Part shown: piece after piece, positions 25,483 through 62,979 of the stretch | How the letters are laid out: every line of letters starts with the position of its first letter | How positions within the stretch are numbered: the stretch's first letter is position 1 | Source: Agapetus fuscipes | Taxonomy: Eukaryota; Arthropoda; Insecta; Trichoptera; Glossosomatidae | Length of the DNA: 64,000 nt | Direction: 5' to 3' | Assembly: GCA_951799405.1 (NCBI GenBank) | Contig: OX637352.1 | Coordinates: 15,448,820 to 15,512,819, forward strand | Translations under genes and position numbers: made by a program | The notes under the pieces: model-generated | What the model saw: the letters and a program-made list of their open reading frames with translations, nothing else | Told to the model about the DNA's origin: nothing | Databases searched by the model: none

Positions 25483-25882
25483 AACATGCATTAAGTTTTG
25501 GCCTGCCATGCCTACTGTGGAAGTACACGCGCCCATATGGGATGCTCGCCCCTGGTTGACTGCAATTCCTGGAAATCCTGGGTAATTGAAGAGCAACGTG
25601 ACGTTATTATTGAATGAACCGCCTGCAGTGTTGTCATCACACGGAGTTTTTACGTTCCTGAACAATGAGTCACTGTTCAGTATTTACGCTATCAGCATTG
25701 CGACATTCCCACTGTCGTCAGCTTTACTGTGTTTGATAATGCCTAAGCTCACGTGTAAACTAATTAACAGTTCAAATACGCGTCACCTGGATCCCGTCTA
25801 CAATGTTTATTTCATTCTTAAACGTCTTCAACCGGGCAGAATGCGTTGTGTGTAAAATGGTCCTTCGAACCGGTATTGCATT
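25483..25882. other. No recognised feature
   Basis: Moderate GC (about 45%). Contains an 89-codon plus frame (25586-25855) without a recognisable motif and an overlapping minus frame. Could be unique host DNA. Confidence 0.4.
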
Positions 25883-25886
25883 ATAC

Positions 25887-26302
25887 TGTTATGTAAATAT
25901 GCAATATAAATATTAAAATAAGTATAGGTATTAGTTATAGCTAATTGGAATTCTTTATTGTATTCGTGGGTAGAATTGATGATTGTGAGTAAATATAGAA
26001 GTCACTATATTTGTGTGTGCTTCGAGAACAGTCTAGCAACAATGTGTTCTCGACAGTTCCATCTTCTTAGTATAAAAAGGGTGCAAATTGCTTGCACTAG
26101 GCAGTTGGTCTTCAAGCTCTAACAAATACAGTCTTATCTGTTAGCTCCAATACAATAAACGAATTCGACCAGTGACCTCAAACCAAGTGTAATGAAATAA
26201 ATGAAAGTGTCTTTGTAACAATAAATATAAACGTGTAAAATAAATAAGTAAAAAGAAGAGTAGTGTTTTATTTGAAAAGTATCCGAACCAAAAATCGTAA
26301 CA
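25887..26302 (+). mobile_element. Solo LTR
   Basis: A 416-bp unit starts TGTTATG and ends CGTAACA (TGTTA...TAACA termini) with a 4-bp duplication ATAC on each side (25883-25886, 26303-26306). Inside are a TATA box, AGTATAAAAAGGG (26071-26083), and AATAAA signals from about 26153. No second LTR or gag/pol lies nearby, so it is the product of LTR-LTR recombination. It is not the same family as the LTRs at 53-57 kb. Confidence 0.8.
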
Positions 26303-26884
26303 ATACTGTTACATTATACTGGGGTTCAAAAAGTCTTTAAATTAACAAAACTGGTCTTCTTTCATGGATATTTATTTTACAATTATATTTTTCTACTCCC
26401 ATTTGGTAATTTACTAATTACAAAACGGCTAACGCAATCACAATGCCATACATTTCTACACCCGTTGCATAATGTTACATTATGCAACCGGTAACCGTGT
26501 TAAAATGAACATGTGCGCATGCGCATTGTCAGAATTGGAACCATTTTTTAATTTCAAATGTCAACCTTGTATGGGGGTATGAAGACCTGTCAATCCAAGA
26601 TGGCCGCAAGCGATCAGCTGATTAGGCTTCATACAATATTAGTGATATTCGGTAGGTAGGAATTACCGTGGTGATGAGACTTTCAGCCCTGGTTCAGATG
26701 AAAATAAATAAGTATATTTTATGTGTAGAGTCAAATAAAAATTGTTAATAGTGCTAAAATTTATCGAATTTATTTATCGGATTGCTCCAAATAAAGCTTT
26801 CCTTTTTTCAATGGAAAATAAAAGGCTTGAAAGGAAAACAATACAAAAAATTTCACCGCAAAAAATAAACAAACTCAAAAAGTT
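26303..26884. other. Mostly unrecognised; MITE-J copy inside
   Basis: 26570-26690 (CCTGTCAATCCAAGATGGCC, ATCAGCTGATTAGG, AATTACCGTGGTGATGAGAC) matches the element at 35699-36062. The rest is AT-rich with no gene. Confidence 0.5.
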
Positions 26885-37900: not shown

Positions 37901-37997
37901 GCCGTTATGTTTTTTCTCGCTTTTGTTCCTTGGCTAAAATTATCTGCTCTGAGGAAACAACTGAAATTATTTAAAGAGCATAATATCAGCGCGACCT

Positions 37998-39245
37998 TGT
38001 GTGAGACTCCGCGACCTCTCCCATCACTCACAGAGCTTCACATCATTCAGCACTTGCTCTTACATTCCTGTTGATACATTTCCCTCTGGTCGTATTTACG
38101 TGGACCTCCGTCTTGTGTGTCGAGACATTCAGCATGCTTGCATGTCATGTTTGCCTGGGACTCCGCGACCTCTCCCTTCACTCACAGAGCTTCATATCAT
38201 TCAGCACTTGCTCCTACATTCCTGTTGCTACACTTCCCTCTGGTCGTATTTACGTGGACCTCCGTCTTGTGTGTCGAGACATTCAGCATGCTTGCATGTC
38301 ATGTTTGCATGAGACCCCGCGACCTCTCCCATCACTCACAGAGCTTCATATCATTCAGCACTTGCTCCTACATTCCTATTGCTACACTTCCCTCTGGTCG
38401 TATTTACGTGGACCTCCGTCTTGTGTGTCGAGACATTCAGCATGCTTGCATGTCACGTTTGCCTGAGACCCCGCGACCTCTCCCATCACTCACAGAGCTG
38501 CACATCATTCAGCACTTGCTCCTACATTCCTATTGCTACACTTCCCTCTGGTCGTATTTACGTGGACCTCCGTCTTATGTGTCGAGACATTCAGCATGCT
38601 TGCATGCCATGTTTGTCTGGGACTCCGCGACCTCTCCCATCACTCACAGAGCTTCATATCATTCAGCACTTGCTCCTACATTTCTATTGCTACACTTCCC
38701 TCTGGTCGTATTTACGTGGACCTCCGTCTTGTGTGTCGAGACATTCAGCATGCTTGCATGTCATGTTTGTCTGGGACTCCACGACCTCTCCCATCACTCA
38801 CAGAGCTTCATATCATTCAGCACTTGCTCCTACATTTCTATTGCTACACTTCCCTCTGGTCGTATTTACGTGGACCTCCGTCTAGTGTGTCGAGACATTC
38901 AGCATGCTTGCATGTCGTGTTTGTCTAAGACCCCGCGACCTCTCCCATCACTCACAGATCAGCACATCAGTCAACACTTCGTCCTACATTCCCAGAGCTA
39001 CATTTCCCTCTGGTCGTATTTACGTGGACCTCCGTCTTGTGTGTCGAGACATTCAGCATGCTTGCATGTCATGTTTGTCTGAGACCCCGCGACCTCTCCC
39101 TTCACTCACAGAGCAGCACATCAGTCAACACTTCGTCCTACATTCCCAGTGCTACACTTCCCTCTGGTCGCATTTACATGGACCTCTTGTGTGTCACCCT
39201 CACAATGTTCACCAGACATTCAGCATGCTTGCATGTCATGCTTCA
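37998..39245. repeat. 154-bp satellite, about 8 units
   Basis: GCGACCTCTCCC-type starts recur at 38011, 38165, 38319, 38473, 38627, 38781, 38935 and 39089, exactly 154 bp apart. Units include CACAGAGCTTCATATCATTC, CTCTGGTCGTATTTACGTGG and GTCGAGACATTCAGCATGC. The last two units carry a distinct block (CAGCACATCAGTCAACACTTC). Since 154 is not a multiple of 3 and the unit lacks plus-strand stops, long open frames (up to 321 codons) run through it by arithmetic; I do not read them as genes. Confidence 0.95.
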
Positions 39246-39254
39246 TGTCGTTTT

Positions 39255-39425
39255 AACATGCAGCTCTACGTTCATTTGGTTCACAATAAAAGCCCTGGTC
39301 TCAGATAAGCATAAATCCTGCAACTCTTTCCGAACTTTCCTGAACCAGCGGTGACATTGGCAAAGTGAACCATCTTTTTGCACTATGGGTGGTCAGCCTC
39401 ATACCAACCTATACGTCAAGGAATC
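39255..39425 (-). mobile_element. LINE-A 3' tail, truncated
   Basis: From ACATGCAGCTCTACGTTC and CATAAATCCTGCAACTCTTTCC to CATACCAACCTATACGTCAAGG. The satellite abuts its truncated side, so the array may have expanded inside a LINE-A copy. Confidence 0.7.
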
Positions 39426-45947: not shown

Positions 45948-46235
45948 AAGATGATTTATTTGGTGAGCGCTGTTTTTGTGTGTATCACACCTCAAGAGCC
46001 CTCTGCGAGCTTGGTCGTCGCTGTAGAAAGCGCCAATTCTCAAGCAAGACCCAGTTGTTGTAAGGTTGGATGGACCTTTCAGTGACCGGTCGTTGGTAAA
46101 GGTTTATGAATTTTTCAACTCAGCGAAGAGCACATTCGAAATATAAATGGTATATTTTAGTGCTCCGCCGGGATCCGAATCCGCAACCTTCCATTTACGA
46201 GTCCGAAGTGTTGCCACTGGACTACGGACCGGTCC
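45948..46235 (-). mobile_element. SINE-B with 5S-headed 5' end
   Basis: A complete SINE-B from its tail (AATATTAAGATGATTTATTTGG) to GGACCGGTCC, with an intact A box TAGTCCAGTGG and the variant B box GGATTCGGATCC. The 5S-derived head at 46236-46358 continues it on the 5' side without a gap. Confidence 0.85.
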
Positions 46236-46358
46236 AAGATGCCAACGACACGCGGTGTACCTGAGCGGTCACCCATCCAAGTACTATCCGCGCCCAATGT
46301 TGCTTAACTTCGGTGATCGATGGGAACCAGTGCTTTCAACATGGTAACGTCCGTTGAC
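46236..46358 (-). repeat. 5S rRNA-derived SINE head
   Basis: The complement reads like an almost full 5S rRNA: GTCAACGGACG at the 5' end, GATCACCGAAGTTAAGCAAC, TTGGATGGGTGACCGCTC and ACACCGCGTGTCGTTGGC. The A, intermediate and C boxes of the internal promoter are recognisable. It is 123 bp, the same length as 62857-62979. Confidence 0.8.
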
Positions 46359-50945: not shown

Positions 50946-51540
50946 CACTGAGGTTAAAAAAACAAAACAAAAGGGTTAAAATTCAGGGTAGGAAAGAGAA
51001 AGTGGGTGGGGTTTTTCGGGGCAGGTACTGTTTGTAGGGGAGAAGGACTAGGTATTTGCTTATTAATATTATTTAGATTATATTGAATTTCGAGCGTATA
51101 AAGGGCGATAAGTTATCTGACTTTGCACCCTGAGAAGAGGACCTTTACTCCTGTAGTATCGAAGAAAACTATGTTTTAAAAAAGTTTTTAATTGAAATTA
51201 CACATTATTTAGTCTCGCGACAGGTTTAGAGGATAGACCGCTCTTAATGAAACAGTAGGAAAGAGAACGCGTGCATTTAATAAACGTTTTAATCACAATG
51301 TTAGGCATTCCATACGCCTCCTAAATACTTCCTCAATTCTCTGAAACCAGTTTATTTGTAATAATAGTAATAGCATGAATGTGACAGCTGTTGCAGCTGA
51401 CACAACCATCACATTCTGTTTAACATTCACGTCGTCACATGACAGCGAGACCATGACCTTCGCAATGTCGGTACACTCGGTAGAAAGTAAAATACAATAT
51501 TATTAATCATTTACTTACTTTCCGCGTCCAGAACCACCAA
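50946..51540. other. No recognised feature
   Basis: Non-coding. Possibly the remains of a Penelope-like terminal repeat in its first 260 bp (inverted AATTTCAATTAAAAA arms); nothing recognised further on. Confidence 0.4.
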
Positions 51541-52400
51541 TGCTCAGCATCTCCAGTGACTAGCGGCAGCCACTGCATTGTCGTTTCCTTGGAGCAGGTC
51601 CTTCAGTGTGCATACCCATACTGTACTTACTTACGTGTCCAGAACCACCTATGCTCAGCATCTCCAGTGACTAGCGGCAGCCACTGCATTGTCGTTTCCT
51701 TGGAGCAGGTCCTTCAGTGTGCATACCCATACTGTACTTACTTACGTGTCCAGAACCACCTATGCTCAGCATCTCCAGTGACTAGCGGCAGCCACTGCAT
51801 TGTCGTTTCCTTGGAGCAGGTCCGTCAGTGTGCATACCCATACTGTACTTACTTACGTGTCCAGAACCACCTATGCTCAGCATCTCCAGTGACTAGCGGC
51901 AGCCACTGCATTGTCGTTTCCTTGGAGCAGGTCCGTCAGTGTGCATACCCATACTGTACTTACTTACGTGTCCAGAACCACCTATGCTCAGCATCTCCAG
52001 TGACTAGCGGCAGCCACTGCATTGTCGTTTCCTTGGAGCAGGTCCGTCAGTGTGCATACCCATACTGTACTTACTTACGTGTCCAGAACCACCTATGCTC
52101 AGCATCTCCAGTGACTAGCGGCAGCCACTGCATTGTCGTTTCCTTGGAGCAGGTCCGTCAGTGTGCATACCCATACTGTACTTACTTACGTGTCCAGAAC
52201 CACCTATGCTCAGCATCTCCAGTGACTAGCGGCAGCCACTGCATTGTCGTTTCCTTGGAGCAGGTCCTTCAGTGTGCATACCCATACTGTACTTACTTAC
52301 GTGTCCAGAACCACCTATGCTCAGCATCTCCAGTGACTAGCGGCAGCCACTGCATTGTCGTTTCCTTGAAGCAGGTCCGCCAGTGTGCACTTTGGCACAC
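51541..52400. repeat. 111-bp tandem array, about 7.7 units
   Basis: TGCTCAGCATCTCC recurs at 51541, 51652, 51763, 51874, 51985, 52096, 52207 and 52318, every 111 bp. Units are nearly identical. 111 bp is 37 codons, so one plus frame stays open for 307 codons (51556-52479). On the minus strand each unit carries the codons for the C-terminal end of the LINE at 52290-52600, so this is an amplified LINE 3' end, not a gene. Confidence 0.95.
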
Positions 52401-52600
52401 TGACATATGTGCCGAGTCCTGCATATCCCCGCAGTCGCACAGGGTGTCCTGTCCACTGTCGAGCAGGCCCCACCTCTGAAGGCTTGTCCTGCACCTTGTC
52501 ACCCAGTCCTGAGTCTGTTGAGGGCTCTCCAGGTATTGTATGGTAGCTGGTTGCCAGGTGGGAGAGTCTCGGCTGGTTCCATCCAGCTGCTACCATCCCT
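52290..52600 (-). pseudogene. LINE C-terminal fragment next to the array
   Basis: The minus frame reads VTRCRTSLQRWGLLDSGQDT, LCDCGDMQDSAHMSVCQSAH and WRTCFKETTMQWLPLVTGDA, then EHRWFWTRK and a stop. RCRTSLQRWG...CDCGxxxxxxHxxxC is the zinc-motif end of the LINE type at 45.2 kb, here with C-x-C-x8-H-x3-C. Upstream codons (RLSHLATSYHTIPG) lie in another frame. The stop and the last 30 codons are the part repeated in the 111-bp array. Only this end is present. Confidence 0.7.
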
Positions 52601-52870: not shown

Positions 52871-53151
52871 TTTTAAATTTCAGTGGTGAAAAAAATATCA
52901 CATTTTAAATTAACTGCAATACTGAATAAAACATAAAATAAATACATTGAAAATTATGCGTGCGTCCGCCATTGAAGGGCATGTTTCGGAAGGTTGGTAG
53001 GTTGGTATTGTCAATGGCAATAAAAACTCATTGTTTATGGTTCATCGAATCCGAGACCACAGACAATGAGCGCGTCCAAAATGGCCGACCCCAAGGGTCA
53101 CGCACCAAACAGATACCTTATAAGCATTTTTAATTTGATTACATTGAATAT

Positions 53152-53667
53152 TGTTACGAAATTAGGGTTCAATTGTCTTCAAATTAAAAATACACAGGTC
53201 TTCTTCAATAGTTATTTATTTTACACAGTTACAAAATTTATTTTCACACTACTTTCTCGATTATTCCACTTGGTTTTGGTTCACTGATCAGATGACTTCG
53301 ATGTGTTTGTAAGTCTCTATGATACTGGCCCGCTCTGCAGGCCATTCGCACCTTTATACTCTGTAGAGCAGTATGATCTAGAACTAAAGTCGCCAGACGG
53401 TTCCAGAGTAATTATTACTTCTCGATGTTTCACGTACTACCTAGACACAACCAAAATCCTACCTACCAATGCAATACAGTATTCCTATAATTATAACAAA
53501 TACCTACTTAGCCTAGAGAATTCTACACTTATACACAATTATCGATCCTACCTACCTATACCTATGAGGACTCTTATAACTATAACTACCCATACTTATT
53601 TCAATATTTATATTTACATAACACTATAACTACCCATACTTATTTCAATATTTATATTTACATAACA
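53152..53667 (-). repeat. 3' LTR
   Basis: 516 bp; identical by eye to 56688-57203. Its minus-strand 5' end contains a 44-bp tandem duplication (units starting 53581 and 53625), so two TGTTATG starts exist. A TATA-like stretch lies within AGAGTATAAAGGTGC (minus, near 53355). Confidence 0.9.
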
Positions 53668-53682
53668 CTACCCCCCACCTAG
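53668..53682 (-). other. Polypurine tract overlapping the gag stop
   Basis: The minus strand reads TAGGTGGGGGGTAG directly before the 3' LTR. It encodes the last Gly codons and the stop, so the plus-strand primer site and the gag end are the same bases. Confidence 0.7.
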
Positions 53683-56007
53683 ACTGTTTCGTCCCGGAAC
53701 AGTCTTGACTCTGTGTAGGTAGGGGCATGCTGATCCACGTCGACACCCTGTGGTCAGGAAGAAGTGGCAGTCCACGGATTTCTCCCCACTGGCTCTCGGC
53801 TGCGCTTGCTCGCAGCACACCATGACGCTGATGCCGACTCCCGAGAACACTGCTTCAATCATACTCCGGATTATCCGCCAGTCTCGATTAGCGCGGCCGC
53901 CACCCATCTTCGGTATTGCCAGACGCGCCTGCTGATCCTCCAACATGTAGTCACGCAGCTCAACAAGGCCGTCCCACAATGCCTTGTAGTCCTCTTCCAG
54001 GTTGCTGGAATCCGGGACAACCAGGCAGTATGCTTGTTGACGCCCCTTCGGTAGTCTCAGAGCTCTTCCTTGCGGGCTGCTCGAGGGTTGCGGTTCTCCG
54101 AATTTGTATCGGAAGACCCGTGCAATTCCTCTAGACATATCTAGATCTTCCGGTACACTGCATGCCAGTGTGTGGTCCCCAGTGACCTCAAATAAGTCCT
54201 TGTGGACTTCTGTGGTCACCCCATGGCGAATCTTCTGTCCCTCTTGCACCTTGCTCCAGAACGTCTCAAACAGGGGCGCTTCTTTGGATGCGACGCATTT
54301 TTGTACTCTCTGGGCGGGCTGGTCATTGTTTGACCACTTTGCTCTTTGAGTTGGCCGGTGGTTATCCTTCATTCGAGCTCCCGCCTCCTTGGTGTTGCTG
54401 ATCTTGGACTCCAGGTTGGCGATGGTGTCCTTCGTCCTGGGCCCCTGCCCAGCTTCCAGCTGCTGGAGCTTAGTCTTAAGCCCCTTGTTCTGTCTCTCCA
54501 GGCTCAGCACAGTCTCGTGCAACTCGTCCCTCTCGGCCTCCGCTGTTCGCCGGACCCTTTCACTGCTGGCCAAGTTCTTCGTCAGCTGCCTGTTCTCCGT
54601 CTCCATGACTTTGACCTTTCTCTCGGCATCCTGGAGCTGTTTCCTCAGCCGTTTGTTCATCTCCATGGTGGTCTCTACATCCTTGCGGTCGTCTTCCAAT
54701 TTCTCCGGTCCTTGAGACTTTGGGCACCTCGCGCTCAGGTGTCCTTGCTGGCCACACGTCCAGCAGTGCGCCTTCTGTCTCGTTGGCTCAAGTTGCTGCA
54801 GCACTTTTTCTATTATTTCCTCGGTTGTAGGTAGTTTGACCTCCTCTGCCTTGATTGCACAAACCCTGGCGTGGCCCCTGATGGACTGTTTGACAGCCTC
54901 AAATTCGAGAGCTCGGCTTAGCGCCTCGTTCAACGTCTTCGGAAGAGCCAGCTTCACTGCTTGCTGCGTCTCCCATTCTCTCAATCCGTTCAGGAACTTG
55001 TCCACTGCCAAGCTCTCGCAGATGTCATCAGGGAATGTCGGGTAAGCGTCTCGTACTAGGTGGACGATGTCCATTTCAAACTCCTGGAGGCTCTCGTTGG
55101 GCTTCTGCACCCTTGTGTTCAGCTGCGACTTGTACAGCTGCTCCAGGCACTTGTGGCCATAGCGCATATCCAAGCGCTGCTTCAGCTGCCCAAAGTCACC
55201 ACGGTTGTCCAGGGGTATGGCCTGCAGAACCCTGAGAGCGTCTCCTCGGAGCGACAGGCTGAGAACCGAAGCCTTCTTCTGCTGGCTCCAGGCTCCCATC
55301 ATGGCAGCCGTCTCAAAGAGGGTCAAATACTCCTCCCACGACGTCTTCCCGTCGAAGGTCGGAAGGTTGTGCTTCGACAGCGAAGGGTCGTCATCCCCTC
55401 TAGTGACCCTGGTTGGAGTTGAGCATCCCTGGTCGGTCTCGTCGTGAAGGCCTTTGGGGGATATTCTGGTGGACTCCATCTGGCCCTTGTCGGCCAGCTC
55501 GGCACGCAGATGTACCTCCAGATTTGACATCCGAGTCTCCATTTCCCCCTTCAGGGCTGTCATCTTCTCCTCCATTTCTCCCTTCAGGGTTGTGAGATTC
55601 TCGTTCATCTTCTCTTTCATGTTGGCGAGGTCTTCCTGCAGGGCCTTGGCGTTTTCAGCCATCTCCACTTTCAGGTCGGTCACCACTTCCTTCAGGTTGG
55701 TGGTCATCTTCTCCTCCAGCCCGGTCAGGTCCGCCTTCAGGTCTTCCCTCAGGGTCTTGGAATTGTCAGCCATCTCAGTCTTCAGTCCTGTCAGGTTACT
55801 GTTGATGCTGATATTTAGCTCGTCCAAGGCGCGGTCCCCCCCAGACGCCATGACAAAATATGCCGGGTCTTCGCCTGTCTGTTCCAAGGCCTCTATGAGG
55901 CGTGCCTGTAAGGCCGCCTTCCCTCCTGAGGTCTCCAGGTCCCTCTCCAGAAGCTCATTTTTAAGCTCTGTGACTTTGAGGTCCTTGACGTTCACTTTGG
56001 TTGCCAT
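53668..56007 (-). CDS. Gag polyprotein with macro domain and CCCH finger
   Basis: 779 codons on the minus strand, Met at 56007. Residues 6-42 form a SAP motif (LKVTELKNELLERDLETSGG). Residues 60-175 are a coiled coil with DLK/EMxEN repeats. Residues 214-380 match the Ty3/Gypsy capsid (PTFDGKTSWEEYLTLFE; LRGDALRVLQ). Residues 415-428 are a CCHC knuckle (CWTCGQQGHLSARC). Residues 436-520 are a second coiled coil. Residues 598-733 resemble the TARG1/OARD1 macro domain: KDLFEVTGDHTLACSVPEDL, MSRGIARVFRYKFG and AIPKMGGGRANRDW. Residues 747-765 are a C-x7-C-x5-C-x3-H finger. Aligned by eye, the catalytic Lys84 and Asp125 of human TARG1 fall on non-Lys and Ala706, so ADP-ribose binding is likelier than hydrolysis. 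The stop TAG abuts the 3' LTR. Gag assembles the RNA particle; the macro domain's role is inferred only. It could also be a host capture in progress. Confidence 0.85.
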   Translation of the reverse strand: MATKVNVKDLKVTELKNELLERDLETSGGKAALQARLIEALEQTGEDPAYFVMASGGDRALDELNISINSNLTGLKTEMADNSKTLREDLKADLTGLEEKMTTNLKEVVTDLKVEMAENAKALQEDLANMKEKMNENLTTLKGEMEEKMTALKGEMETRMSNLEVHLRAELADKGQMESTRISPKGLHDETDQGCSTPTRVTRGDDDPSLSKHNLPTFDGKTSWEEYLTLFETAAMMGAWSQQKKASVLSLSLRGDALRVLQAIPLDNRGDFGQLKQRLDMRYGHKCLEQLYKSQLNTRVQKPNESLQEFEMDIVHLVRDAYPTFPDDICESLAVDKFLNGLREWETQQAVKLALPKTLNEALSRALEFEAVKQSIRGHARVCAIKAEEVKLPTTEEIIEKVLQQLEPTRQKAHCWTCGQQGHLSARCPKSQGPEKLEDDRKDVETTMEMNKRLRKQLQDAERKVKVMETENRQLTKNLASSERVRRTAEAERDELHETVLSLERQNKGLKTKLQQLEAGQGPRTKDTIANLESKISNTKEAGARMKDNHRPTQRAKWSNNDQPAQRVQKCVASKEAPLFETFWSKVQEGQKIRHGVTTEVHKDLFEVTGDHTLACSVPEDLDMSRGIARVFRYKFGEPQPSSSPQGRALRLPKGRQQAYCLVVPDSSNLEEDYKALWDGLVELRDYMLEDQQARLAIPKMGGGRANRDWRIIRSMIEAVFSGVGISVMVCCEQAQPRASGEKSVDCHFFLTTGCRRGSACPYLHRVKTVPGRNSLGGG

Positions 56008-56687
56008 TTTTTTTCAAAATTTACGTCAAAACAAAAATATTTTCATATTTATTTAATACCAGTTTTGAGTTTTATATATATAGCTGTTTTGAATGCGTAC
56101 TTTAGCAAAATAATAATTTATCTGATTACACTGATTGGTAGGTACTGTCTTTTAATATTTATTTTTAAATCACCAATATTTTTAACATAATAATGTCTGA
56201 TAGTACATAATTATTTATTTCGTCTCAAGTCTCTCCAACACACAGGTAGGTACTTAATGTACATTCATACACTTGTAAACGAAGCACAGTTATTCAAAAA
56301 CTTTTTCTCGATGAATCTGGAACGTTCTTTTGTAATATTTTTTTTTTCAAGATTTTTATTTATTTATTTTATTTTTTTAATCACACACAATAATAAAAAA
56401 ACTATGGTCCAATTTGATGACTTTCTCAATGCGGTAAAATAGTCATTATGTTATGTCCAGAATTATGTTCCATATTATGTTCCATATGATGTTCCAGAAT
56501 TTATAAGCAACTTGCTTTTGCGTCTTTTCTTTTAACAAAAATTTATTTAAACACTTGTTTTCACAAAAGTCAGTTCACACAAAGTTCAATTTGAATAAAG
56601 TTCATTTTAACACTTATTTAATTTATTTTATTTATTTTTAGACAGAAGATCTTAATTTTTCTTGACAATTCCGCACCTGACGCCAAT
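56008..56687 (-). other. Leader of the LTR element with primer site
   Basis: Minus strand, 680 bp, AT-rich, non-coding. It starts two bases inside the 5' LTR with TGGCGTCAGGTGCGGAATTG (56685-56666). TGG plus GTCAGG resembles a tRNA-Leu-type primer site with mismatches; the tRNA is inferred. The rest may carry the packaging signal. Confidence 0.6.
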
Positions 56688-57203
56688 TGTTACGAAATTA
56701 GGGTTCAATTGTCTTCAAATTAAAAATACACAGGTCTTCTTCAATAGTTATTTATTTTACACAGTTACAAAATTTATTTTCACACTACTTTCTCGATTAT
56801 TCCACTTGGTTTTGGTTCACTGATCAGATGACTTCGATGTGTTTGTAAGTCTCTATGATACTGGCCCGCTCTGCAGGCCATTCGCACCTTTATACTCTGT
56901 AGAGCAGTATGATCTAGAACTAAAGTCGCCAGACGGTTCCAGAGTAATTATTACTTCTCGATGTTTCACGTACTACCTAGACACAACCAAAATCCTACCT
57001 ACCAATGCAATACAGTATTCCTATAATTATAACAAATACCTACTTAGCCTAGAGAATTCTACACTTATACACAATTATCGATCCTACCTACCTATACCTA
57101 TGAGGACTCTTATAACTATAACTACCCATACTTATTTCAATATTTATATTTACATAACACTATAACTACCCATACTTATTTCAATATTTATATTTACATA
57201 ACA
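56688..57203 (-). repeat. 5' LTR
   Basis: 516 bp, identical by eye to the 3' LTR; holds the element's promoter and polyadenylation signals. A 108-codon frame on the plus strand occurs in both LTRs and is not a gene. Confidence 0.9.
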
Positions 57204-57264
57204 ATATTATAAAATTAATTAAAAATGTCTGGCGACAAAACGTTTGCAATGAAGATAAAAATGG

Positions 57265-62856: not shown

Positions 62857-62979
62857 GTCAACGACGTTAGCCATGTTGAAAGCACCGGTTCCCATAGATC
62901 ACCGAAGTTAAGCAACATTGGGCGTGGTCAGTGCTTGGATGGGTAACCGCTCAGGTACACCGCGTGTCGTTGGCACCTT
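62857..62979 (+). repeat. 5S rRNA-derived SINE head
   Basis: GTCAACGACG, CCATGTTGAAAGCACCGG, GATCACCGAAGTTAAGCAAC, GTGCTTGGATGGGTAACCGC and ACACCGCGTGTCGTTGGCAC follow 5S rRNA from end to end (123 bp), with substitutions such as GTTCCCATA for GTTCTCGTC. It is joined directly to the SINE-B head at 62980. Confidence 0.85.

Follow-up and report, generated by a model that had tools for sequence, protein, structure and literature searches.

The macro domains of viruses are known above all for removing the ADP-ribose marks of the host and antagonize PARPs chiefly by hydrolysis, and CCCH fingers are found combined with ADP-ribose reading in PARP12 and PARP13. Plants harbor TR-GAG elements, which are non-autonomous and consist of an LTR pair around a gag ORF only. 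For human TARG1 (also OARD1 or C6orf130, of the ALC1-type macro clade), an adenosine held by D20, L21, F22, I44, L47, P118, Y150, and L152, a pyrophosphate held by the GxG motif, and a distal ribose faced by S35, T83, and D125 and by the main-chain atoms of H32 and C33 have been described; K84 attacks as nucleophile, and the intermediate is resolved by D125 (PMC6397177). Macro-domain ORFs are also reported from the endogenous retroviruses of ray-finned fish (PMC4977317, citing Basta et al. 2009).

Here we describe a 4,052-bp LTR element in a window of the Agapetus fuscipes contig OX637352.1 (the whole 64,000-nucleotide stretch that was analyzed), most of whose interior is a single ORF. Its macro domain shares with TARG1 the fold, the order of strands and helices, the MxxGIA and PxxGxG loops, and the D20-L21-F22 adenine strip, but K84, D125, T83, S35, and Y150 are replaced in it, and an LTR element encodes it as a fusion with Gag and a CCCH finger. 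Like the fish endogenous retroviruses, it belongs to a retroelement that has acquired a macro-domain gene; in the fish epsilon-like retrovirus, the macro domain is reported to form an additional ORF (PMC4977317), whereas here it is part of the Gag reading frame in an element of Ty3/Gypsy type that is devoid of pol. Compared by description, the plant TR-GAG elements likewise enclose a lone gag ORF in an LTR pair and are non-autonomous, while macro and CCCH modules go unmentioned in the descriptions consulted. The macro domains of alphavirus nsP3 differ in being hydrolases of RNA viruses, and their identity to the domain described here is 13–15%.

The first-pass annotation knew of no described gag fusion of this type. 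In the literature searched, which consisted mainly of titles and abstract openings, there was indeed no report of a Gag-macro fusion or of any Gag with an internal macro domain, of a TARG1-class or a catalytically dead macro domain in a retroelement, or of ADP-ribose reading as a targeting principle of retroelements; the claim of novelty is, however, narrowed by the macro ORFs already reported from fish retroelements (PMC4977317).

Layout of the LTR element and its Gag ORF

The features of the element are collected in Table 1. The two LTRs are identical at all 516 of 516 bases, end in TG...CA, and are bordered by ATAT on both flanks, which identifies an LTR retrotransposon, and their identity suggests a recent insertion. 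The last codons and stop of the ORF (GGT GGG GGG TAG) form a G-rich tract that directly abuts the 3′ LTR. Between the LTRs, a putative primer-binding site, a putative polypurine tract, and gag alone were found, as in TR-GAG-like elements; the protease, reverse transcriptase (RT), and integrase of an autonomous LTR retrotransposon were not, the element being filled by the ORF and an A+T-rich leader. The ORF had 17 Pfam matches at E ≤ 1, none of them to a pol family, and it contains neither D[ST]G nor an RT-like YxDD, its sole [YF]xDD being an FPDD at residue 325, within the capsid region. From this layout, we read the element as a gag-only, non-autonomous LTR element.

Table 1 Features of the LTR element (positions in the window; residues of the ORF product).
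Feature	Positions	Strand	Details
Target-site duplication ATAT, left copy	53148..53151	.	flank ...GAATAT ahead of LTR
3′ LTR	53152..53667	-	516 bp, TGTTATGT...TCGTAACA; identical to 5′ LTR
Putative polypurine tract AGGTGGGGGGTAG, G-rich	53668..53680	-	read by eye; coincides with the last codons and stop of the ORF
Single intact Gag-like ORF	53668..56007	-	779 aa, ATG start, stop TAG
CCCH zinc finger	53713..53781	-	residues 743-765; PF00642; CPSF30 chain in PDB E=0.0019
TARG1/OARD1-type macro domain	53809..54240	-	residues 590-733
Second coiled coil	54508..54699	-	residues 437-500; Myosin_tail E=5.4e-10, 38.3 bits, cut-off 38.1
CCHC zinc knuckle	54718..54765	-	residues 415-430; PF00098
Ty3/Gypsy-type capsid core	54976..55263	-	residues 249-344; PF03732 (Retrotrans_gag), segment scan
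First coiled-coil-like region	55504..55785	-	residues about 75-168; from sequence; Apolipoprotein match 27.1 bits, cut-off 90
SAP domain	55882..55989	-	residues 7-42; PF02037 E=1.5e-8, 34.5 bits, cut-off 23.9
A+T-rich leader	56008..56685	-	678 nt, primer site included; read directly
Putative primer-binding site TGGCGTCAGGTGCGGAAT	56668..56685	-	starts with TGG, two bases past 5′ LTR end; read directly
5′ LTR	56688..57203	-	516 bp; TATAAA at LTR positions 12, 56, 310; AATAAA at 426, 448
Target-site duplication ATAT, right copy	57204..57207	.	flank ATATTA behind LTR

The unbroken frame of 779 codons proposed in the first-pass annotation is real and its coordinates are exact, but it lies on the minus strand; read over the same interval in frame 1, the plus strand contains stops. 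The SAP, capsid, CCHC, and CCCH modules proposed for it all passed their Pfam cut-offs, the last three as segments only. The capsid scored a marginal 24.4 bits (cut-off 24.1) with Retrotrans_gag when the segment was scanned alone, and did not appear among the matches of the whole protein at E ≤ 1; the CCHC knuckle behind it scored 24.0 bits (cut-off 20.8) as a segment and 18.9 bits, below the cut-off, in the whole protein; the CCCH finger scored 21.8 bits (cut-off 20.5) and 19.3 bits, again below the cut-off, respectively. The spacing of this finger, C-x7-C-x5-C-x3-H as read directly, fits the C-x7/8-C-x5-C-x3-H pattern.

The PNMA and Ty3_capsid models also matched the capsid region, each below its own cut-off. 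When compared with the PDB, the capsid-knuckle segment matched chiefly retroviral nucleocapsids, at the position of the knuckle, and one scan of viral contigs yielded no relatives of the capsid part. The single-sequence model of the capsid was poor (pLDDT 42.8) and was left out of the fold search. Coiled-coil regions flank the capsid and the knuckle on both sides. Together, the domain matches and the predicted fold described below show that the ORF encodes a Gag of Ty3/Gypsy type with a C-terminal extension that carries a macro domain of TARG1 fold and a CCCH finger.

Other parts of the window were also surveyed. Fragments 70–87% alike to the LTR of the element lie on both strands at 25881–26381 and may represent members of this LTR family that are older and have been rearranged. 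Two 5S-rRNA-like copies (46240–46358, minus strand, 84.9 bits; 62857–62975, plus strand, 77.3 bits) adjoin the same repeated flank, as inverted arms, with a tRNA-box-like 80-mer (46155–46234, judged by eye), and look like a composite 5S plus tRNA SINE, not rDNA. A bacterial-code scan of the window returned no tRNA gene. At 51409–52485, a tandem unit of 111 bp is repeated in eight register copies (the inner six 98–100% and the outer two 71–73% alike), with a plus-strand open frame of 331 aa, which may owe its openness solely to a period divisible by three; a second repeat region (37965–39351) contains long plus-strand open frames of repeated peptide. Of ten other ORFs of the window compared with Pfam, nine had no match at E ≤ 0.1, and the remaining one had a weak match to zf-RVT that fell short of the cut-off.

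Homology and relatives of the macro domain

No macro match was found in the Pfam scan, with either the whole protein or the segment, and NCBIfam returned only a weak DarG match (20.7 bits, cut-off 250). In the PDB sequence search, TARG1 chains were the top five of 19 matches (E 2.1e-10 to 3e-10, residues 599–730). The single macro sequence aligned by hhalign with 19 OARD1-type proteins at E 1.6e-14, as against 0.03 for the best of 200 shuffles, 0.86 for the reversed domain, and 0.17 to 0.95 for seven other segments of the ORF. On these comparisons, chance is excluded as the source of the macro homology.

The AlphaFold model of the domain reached pLDDT values of 70–95 (means of ten-residue blocks) over model residues 11 to 150, with 44 in the first block and 25–40 in the finger and tail; its alignment contains the same 19 OARD1-type rows, so that the model is not independent of the hhalign profile result. 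TARG1 was the best match of this model in the fold search, in which alphavirus macro domains ranked below TARG1, DarG, Poa1p, and two Bacteroides proteins. The macro fold anticipated for residues 590–740 was recovered with the PDB matches, the profile, and the model, and both the PDB matches and the model place TARG1 closest.

Searched alone against proteins, the macro domain gave 22 candidates, of which one, P0001 (ENA, 232 aa, 996-bp contig), was a relative. Its match to the ORF spans 220 residues (92%) and takes in the linker from residue 560 onward, and both sequences end in RNSLGGG. The first-pass annotation had named the lack of any other gag copy with this region as a result that would count against it, and P0001 answers the point by half: it has the macro-CCCH tail, but no part of Gag can be recognized in its sequence. 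Residues 570–779 were also searched against 5.8 billion proteins under whole-protein length limits, for which P0001 is too short to qualify, and none of the 353 candidates matched. Two scans of viral contigs gave no relatives of the C-terminal part, and none of 27 pattern matches in prokaryote genome contigs was confirmed. Neither a helper element nor a full-length parent was found in the proteins, viral and prokaryote contigs, and window searched. Aligned with human TARG1, the macro domain matched 2,498 of 3,464 candidates; the best 120 of these comprise P0001, mostly vertebrate OARD1-type proteins, one coral and one mussel protein, hypothetical or unnamed proteins, and one named as an inositol-trisphosphate receptor.

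The 17 differences between P0001 and the ORF are distributed unevenly, with 16 among the 51 positions up to residue 610 and one among the 169 beyond. The longest identical run is 148 residues, a length reached by none of 100,000 random placements of the differences. This distribution points either to recombination between two lineages close to where the macro domain starts or to much stronger constraint on the macro-CCCH part; recombination is favored by the sharp edge, which falls inside the N-terminal part of the macro domain.

The first 12 residues of P0001, which starts with a Met of its own, do not match Gag and may stem from a flank, a splice product, or a different upstream gene. The N-terminal decapeptide was absent from all six frames of the window with up to four mismatches allowed, and a spliced origin of these residues from the window was rejected on this ground.

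State of the ADP-ribose pocket

Five of the eight adenosine contacts of TARG1 (D20, L21, F22, I44, and P118) and both GxG glycines are retained in the element, and L47 is replaced by V at a position that is variable in OARD1 also. The two contacts lost are Y150 (to C), which is invariant in 22 of 22 OARD1-type rows, and L152 (to E). On the side of the distal ribose, none of the four side chains is retained (S35 to P, T83 to V, K84 to P, and D125 to A); T83, K84, and D125 are invariant in 22 of 22 OARD1-type rows, and S35 in 21 of 22, that is, in all rows having that column. H32 and C33, which in TARG1 face this ribose through their main chain, have become C and S, and G19 is K. At every pocket site compared, P0001 has the same residue as the element.

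The TARG1 hydrolase pattern TKx(30,35)Px[IL]GxGxD, which includes K84 and D125, is missing from the window and from P0001. It is present in 115 of the 119 other matches among the best 120 of 2,498; of the four that lack it, two retain a loop-3 PRIGCGLD and two have no loop-3 motif in the available sequence. The earlier idea that the domain counters ADP-ribosylation is thus not supported as far as hydrolysis is concerned, both catalytic residues of TARG1 and the two other distal-ribose side chains being replaced in the element and in P0001 alike. Judged by these residues, the TARG1 reaction is unlikely for the macro domain of the element, and binding of an adenine nucleotide or ADP-ribose is plausible but weakened, since the loss of Y150 and L152 makes an ADP-ribose reader less likely. 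The net charge of the macro domain is −2, which does not favor direct binding of nucleic acid by this domain.

Possible roles of the Gag-macro-CCCH protein

Our preferred explanation, which we hold tentatively and regard as quite possible rather than probable, is that of a recent non-autonomous Gag-macro-CCCH element that receives pol in trans and whose macro domain is an ADP-ribose reader. Gag would package the RNA of the element through its CCHC and CCCH fingers, and the pol proteins of a full-length relative, supplied in trans, would carry out reverse transcription and integration. The macro domain would derive from a TARG1/OARD1-type gene, and we favor a reader role because the catalytic pocket around the distal ribose appears lost while much of the adenine and pyrophosphate sites is retained. 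Such a domain would anchor the integration complex or particles of Gag on ADP-ribosylated protein, RNA, or chromatin instead of erasing the mark, perhaps acting together with the SAP domain, and SAP and CCCH could provide further contacts. The more specific proposal that a gag-only LTR family turned a host ADP-ribose eraser into a capsid-protein reader, with SAP and CCCH helping to guide particles or integration toward chromatin or RNA that is ADP-ribosylated, seems to us rather unlikely as it stands.

The pocket substitutions, which affect every one of the four distal-ribose side chains, G19, and two adenosine contacts out of eight, would also fit a degenerate passenger, that is, a captured TARG1 segment tolerated at the C terminus of Gag, which has ceased to bind anything specific and has drifted since its capture. 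The near-identity of P0001 past residue 610 may reflect recent recombination and would then be weak evidence of constraint. Against such drift, the macro domain is still recognizable at E 2.1e-10 and its fold is predicted with confidence, the ORF is uninterrupted as far as its stop codon, and both sequences preserve the CCCH ligands; we consider this explanation somewhat unlikely.

The composition and borders of the C-terminal part bear on another possibility, in which the full-length parent carries gag-pol and a separate 3′ macro-CCCH ORF, and the loss of pol by deletion joined that ORF to gag by accident. Third-position G+C is lower in the linker (0.58), macro domain (0.61), and CCCH finger (0.55) than in the five preceding segments (0.64 to 0.81), which weakly suggests that the three arrived together from elsewhere, although the segments are short and the difference is weak. 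The macro-CCCH part directly abuts the putative polypurine tract, P0001 has its own start unrelated to Gag, and accessory macro ORFs of fish retroviruses are reported (PMC4977317). Such a parent was, however, absent from the searches made, and we judge this course of events unlikely.

A macro-CCCH tail could instead act as a decoy that competes with host PARP/ZAP-like antiviral proteins or shields the element from them, as its combination of a CCCH finger with an ADP-ribose reader resembles PARP12/13 and alphavirus macro domains are among the fold-search matches. This role is distinctly unlikely, given that the TARG1 residues for the hydrolysis on which viral antagonism chiefly depends are missing here and that the closest relative is host TARG1 and no viral macro domain. 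Finally, the gag-only content of the element and the example of Ty1 p22, a C-terminal Gag product that inhibits particle assembly (PMC4599808), would fit a satellite or inhibitor of the full-length relative, whose product co-assembles with the particles of this helper to poison or hijack them. The macro-CCCH tail would then serve in assembly or in the selection of RNA and be unrelated to ADP-ribose, but no helper was found for comparison and the ADP-ribose pocket is retained in part, which leaves this the most improbable of the explanations.

In this locus, a mobile element seems to have retained the macro fold, dropped the eraser chemistry, and fused the domain to Gag, while encoding nothing else detectable. 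If the macro domain does bind ADP-ribose, as the reader explanation has it, this would suggest why an element devoid of pol keeps a 779-codon protein intact, and the element would offer a straightforward, testable example in which a retroelement uses ADP-ribosylation either as its address or as its shield.
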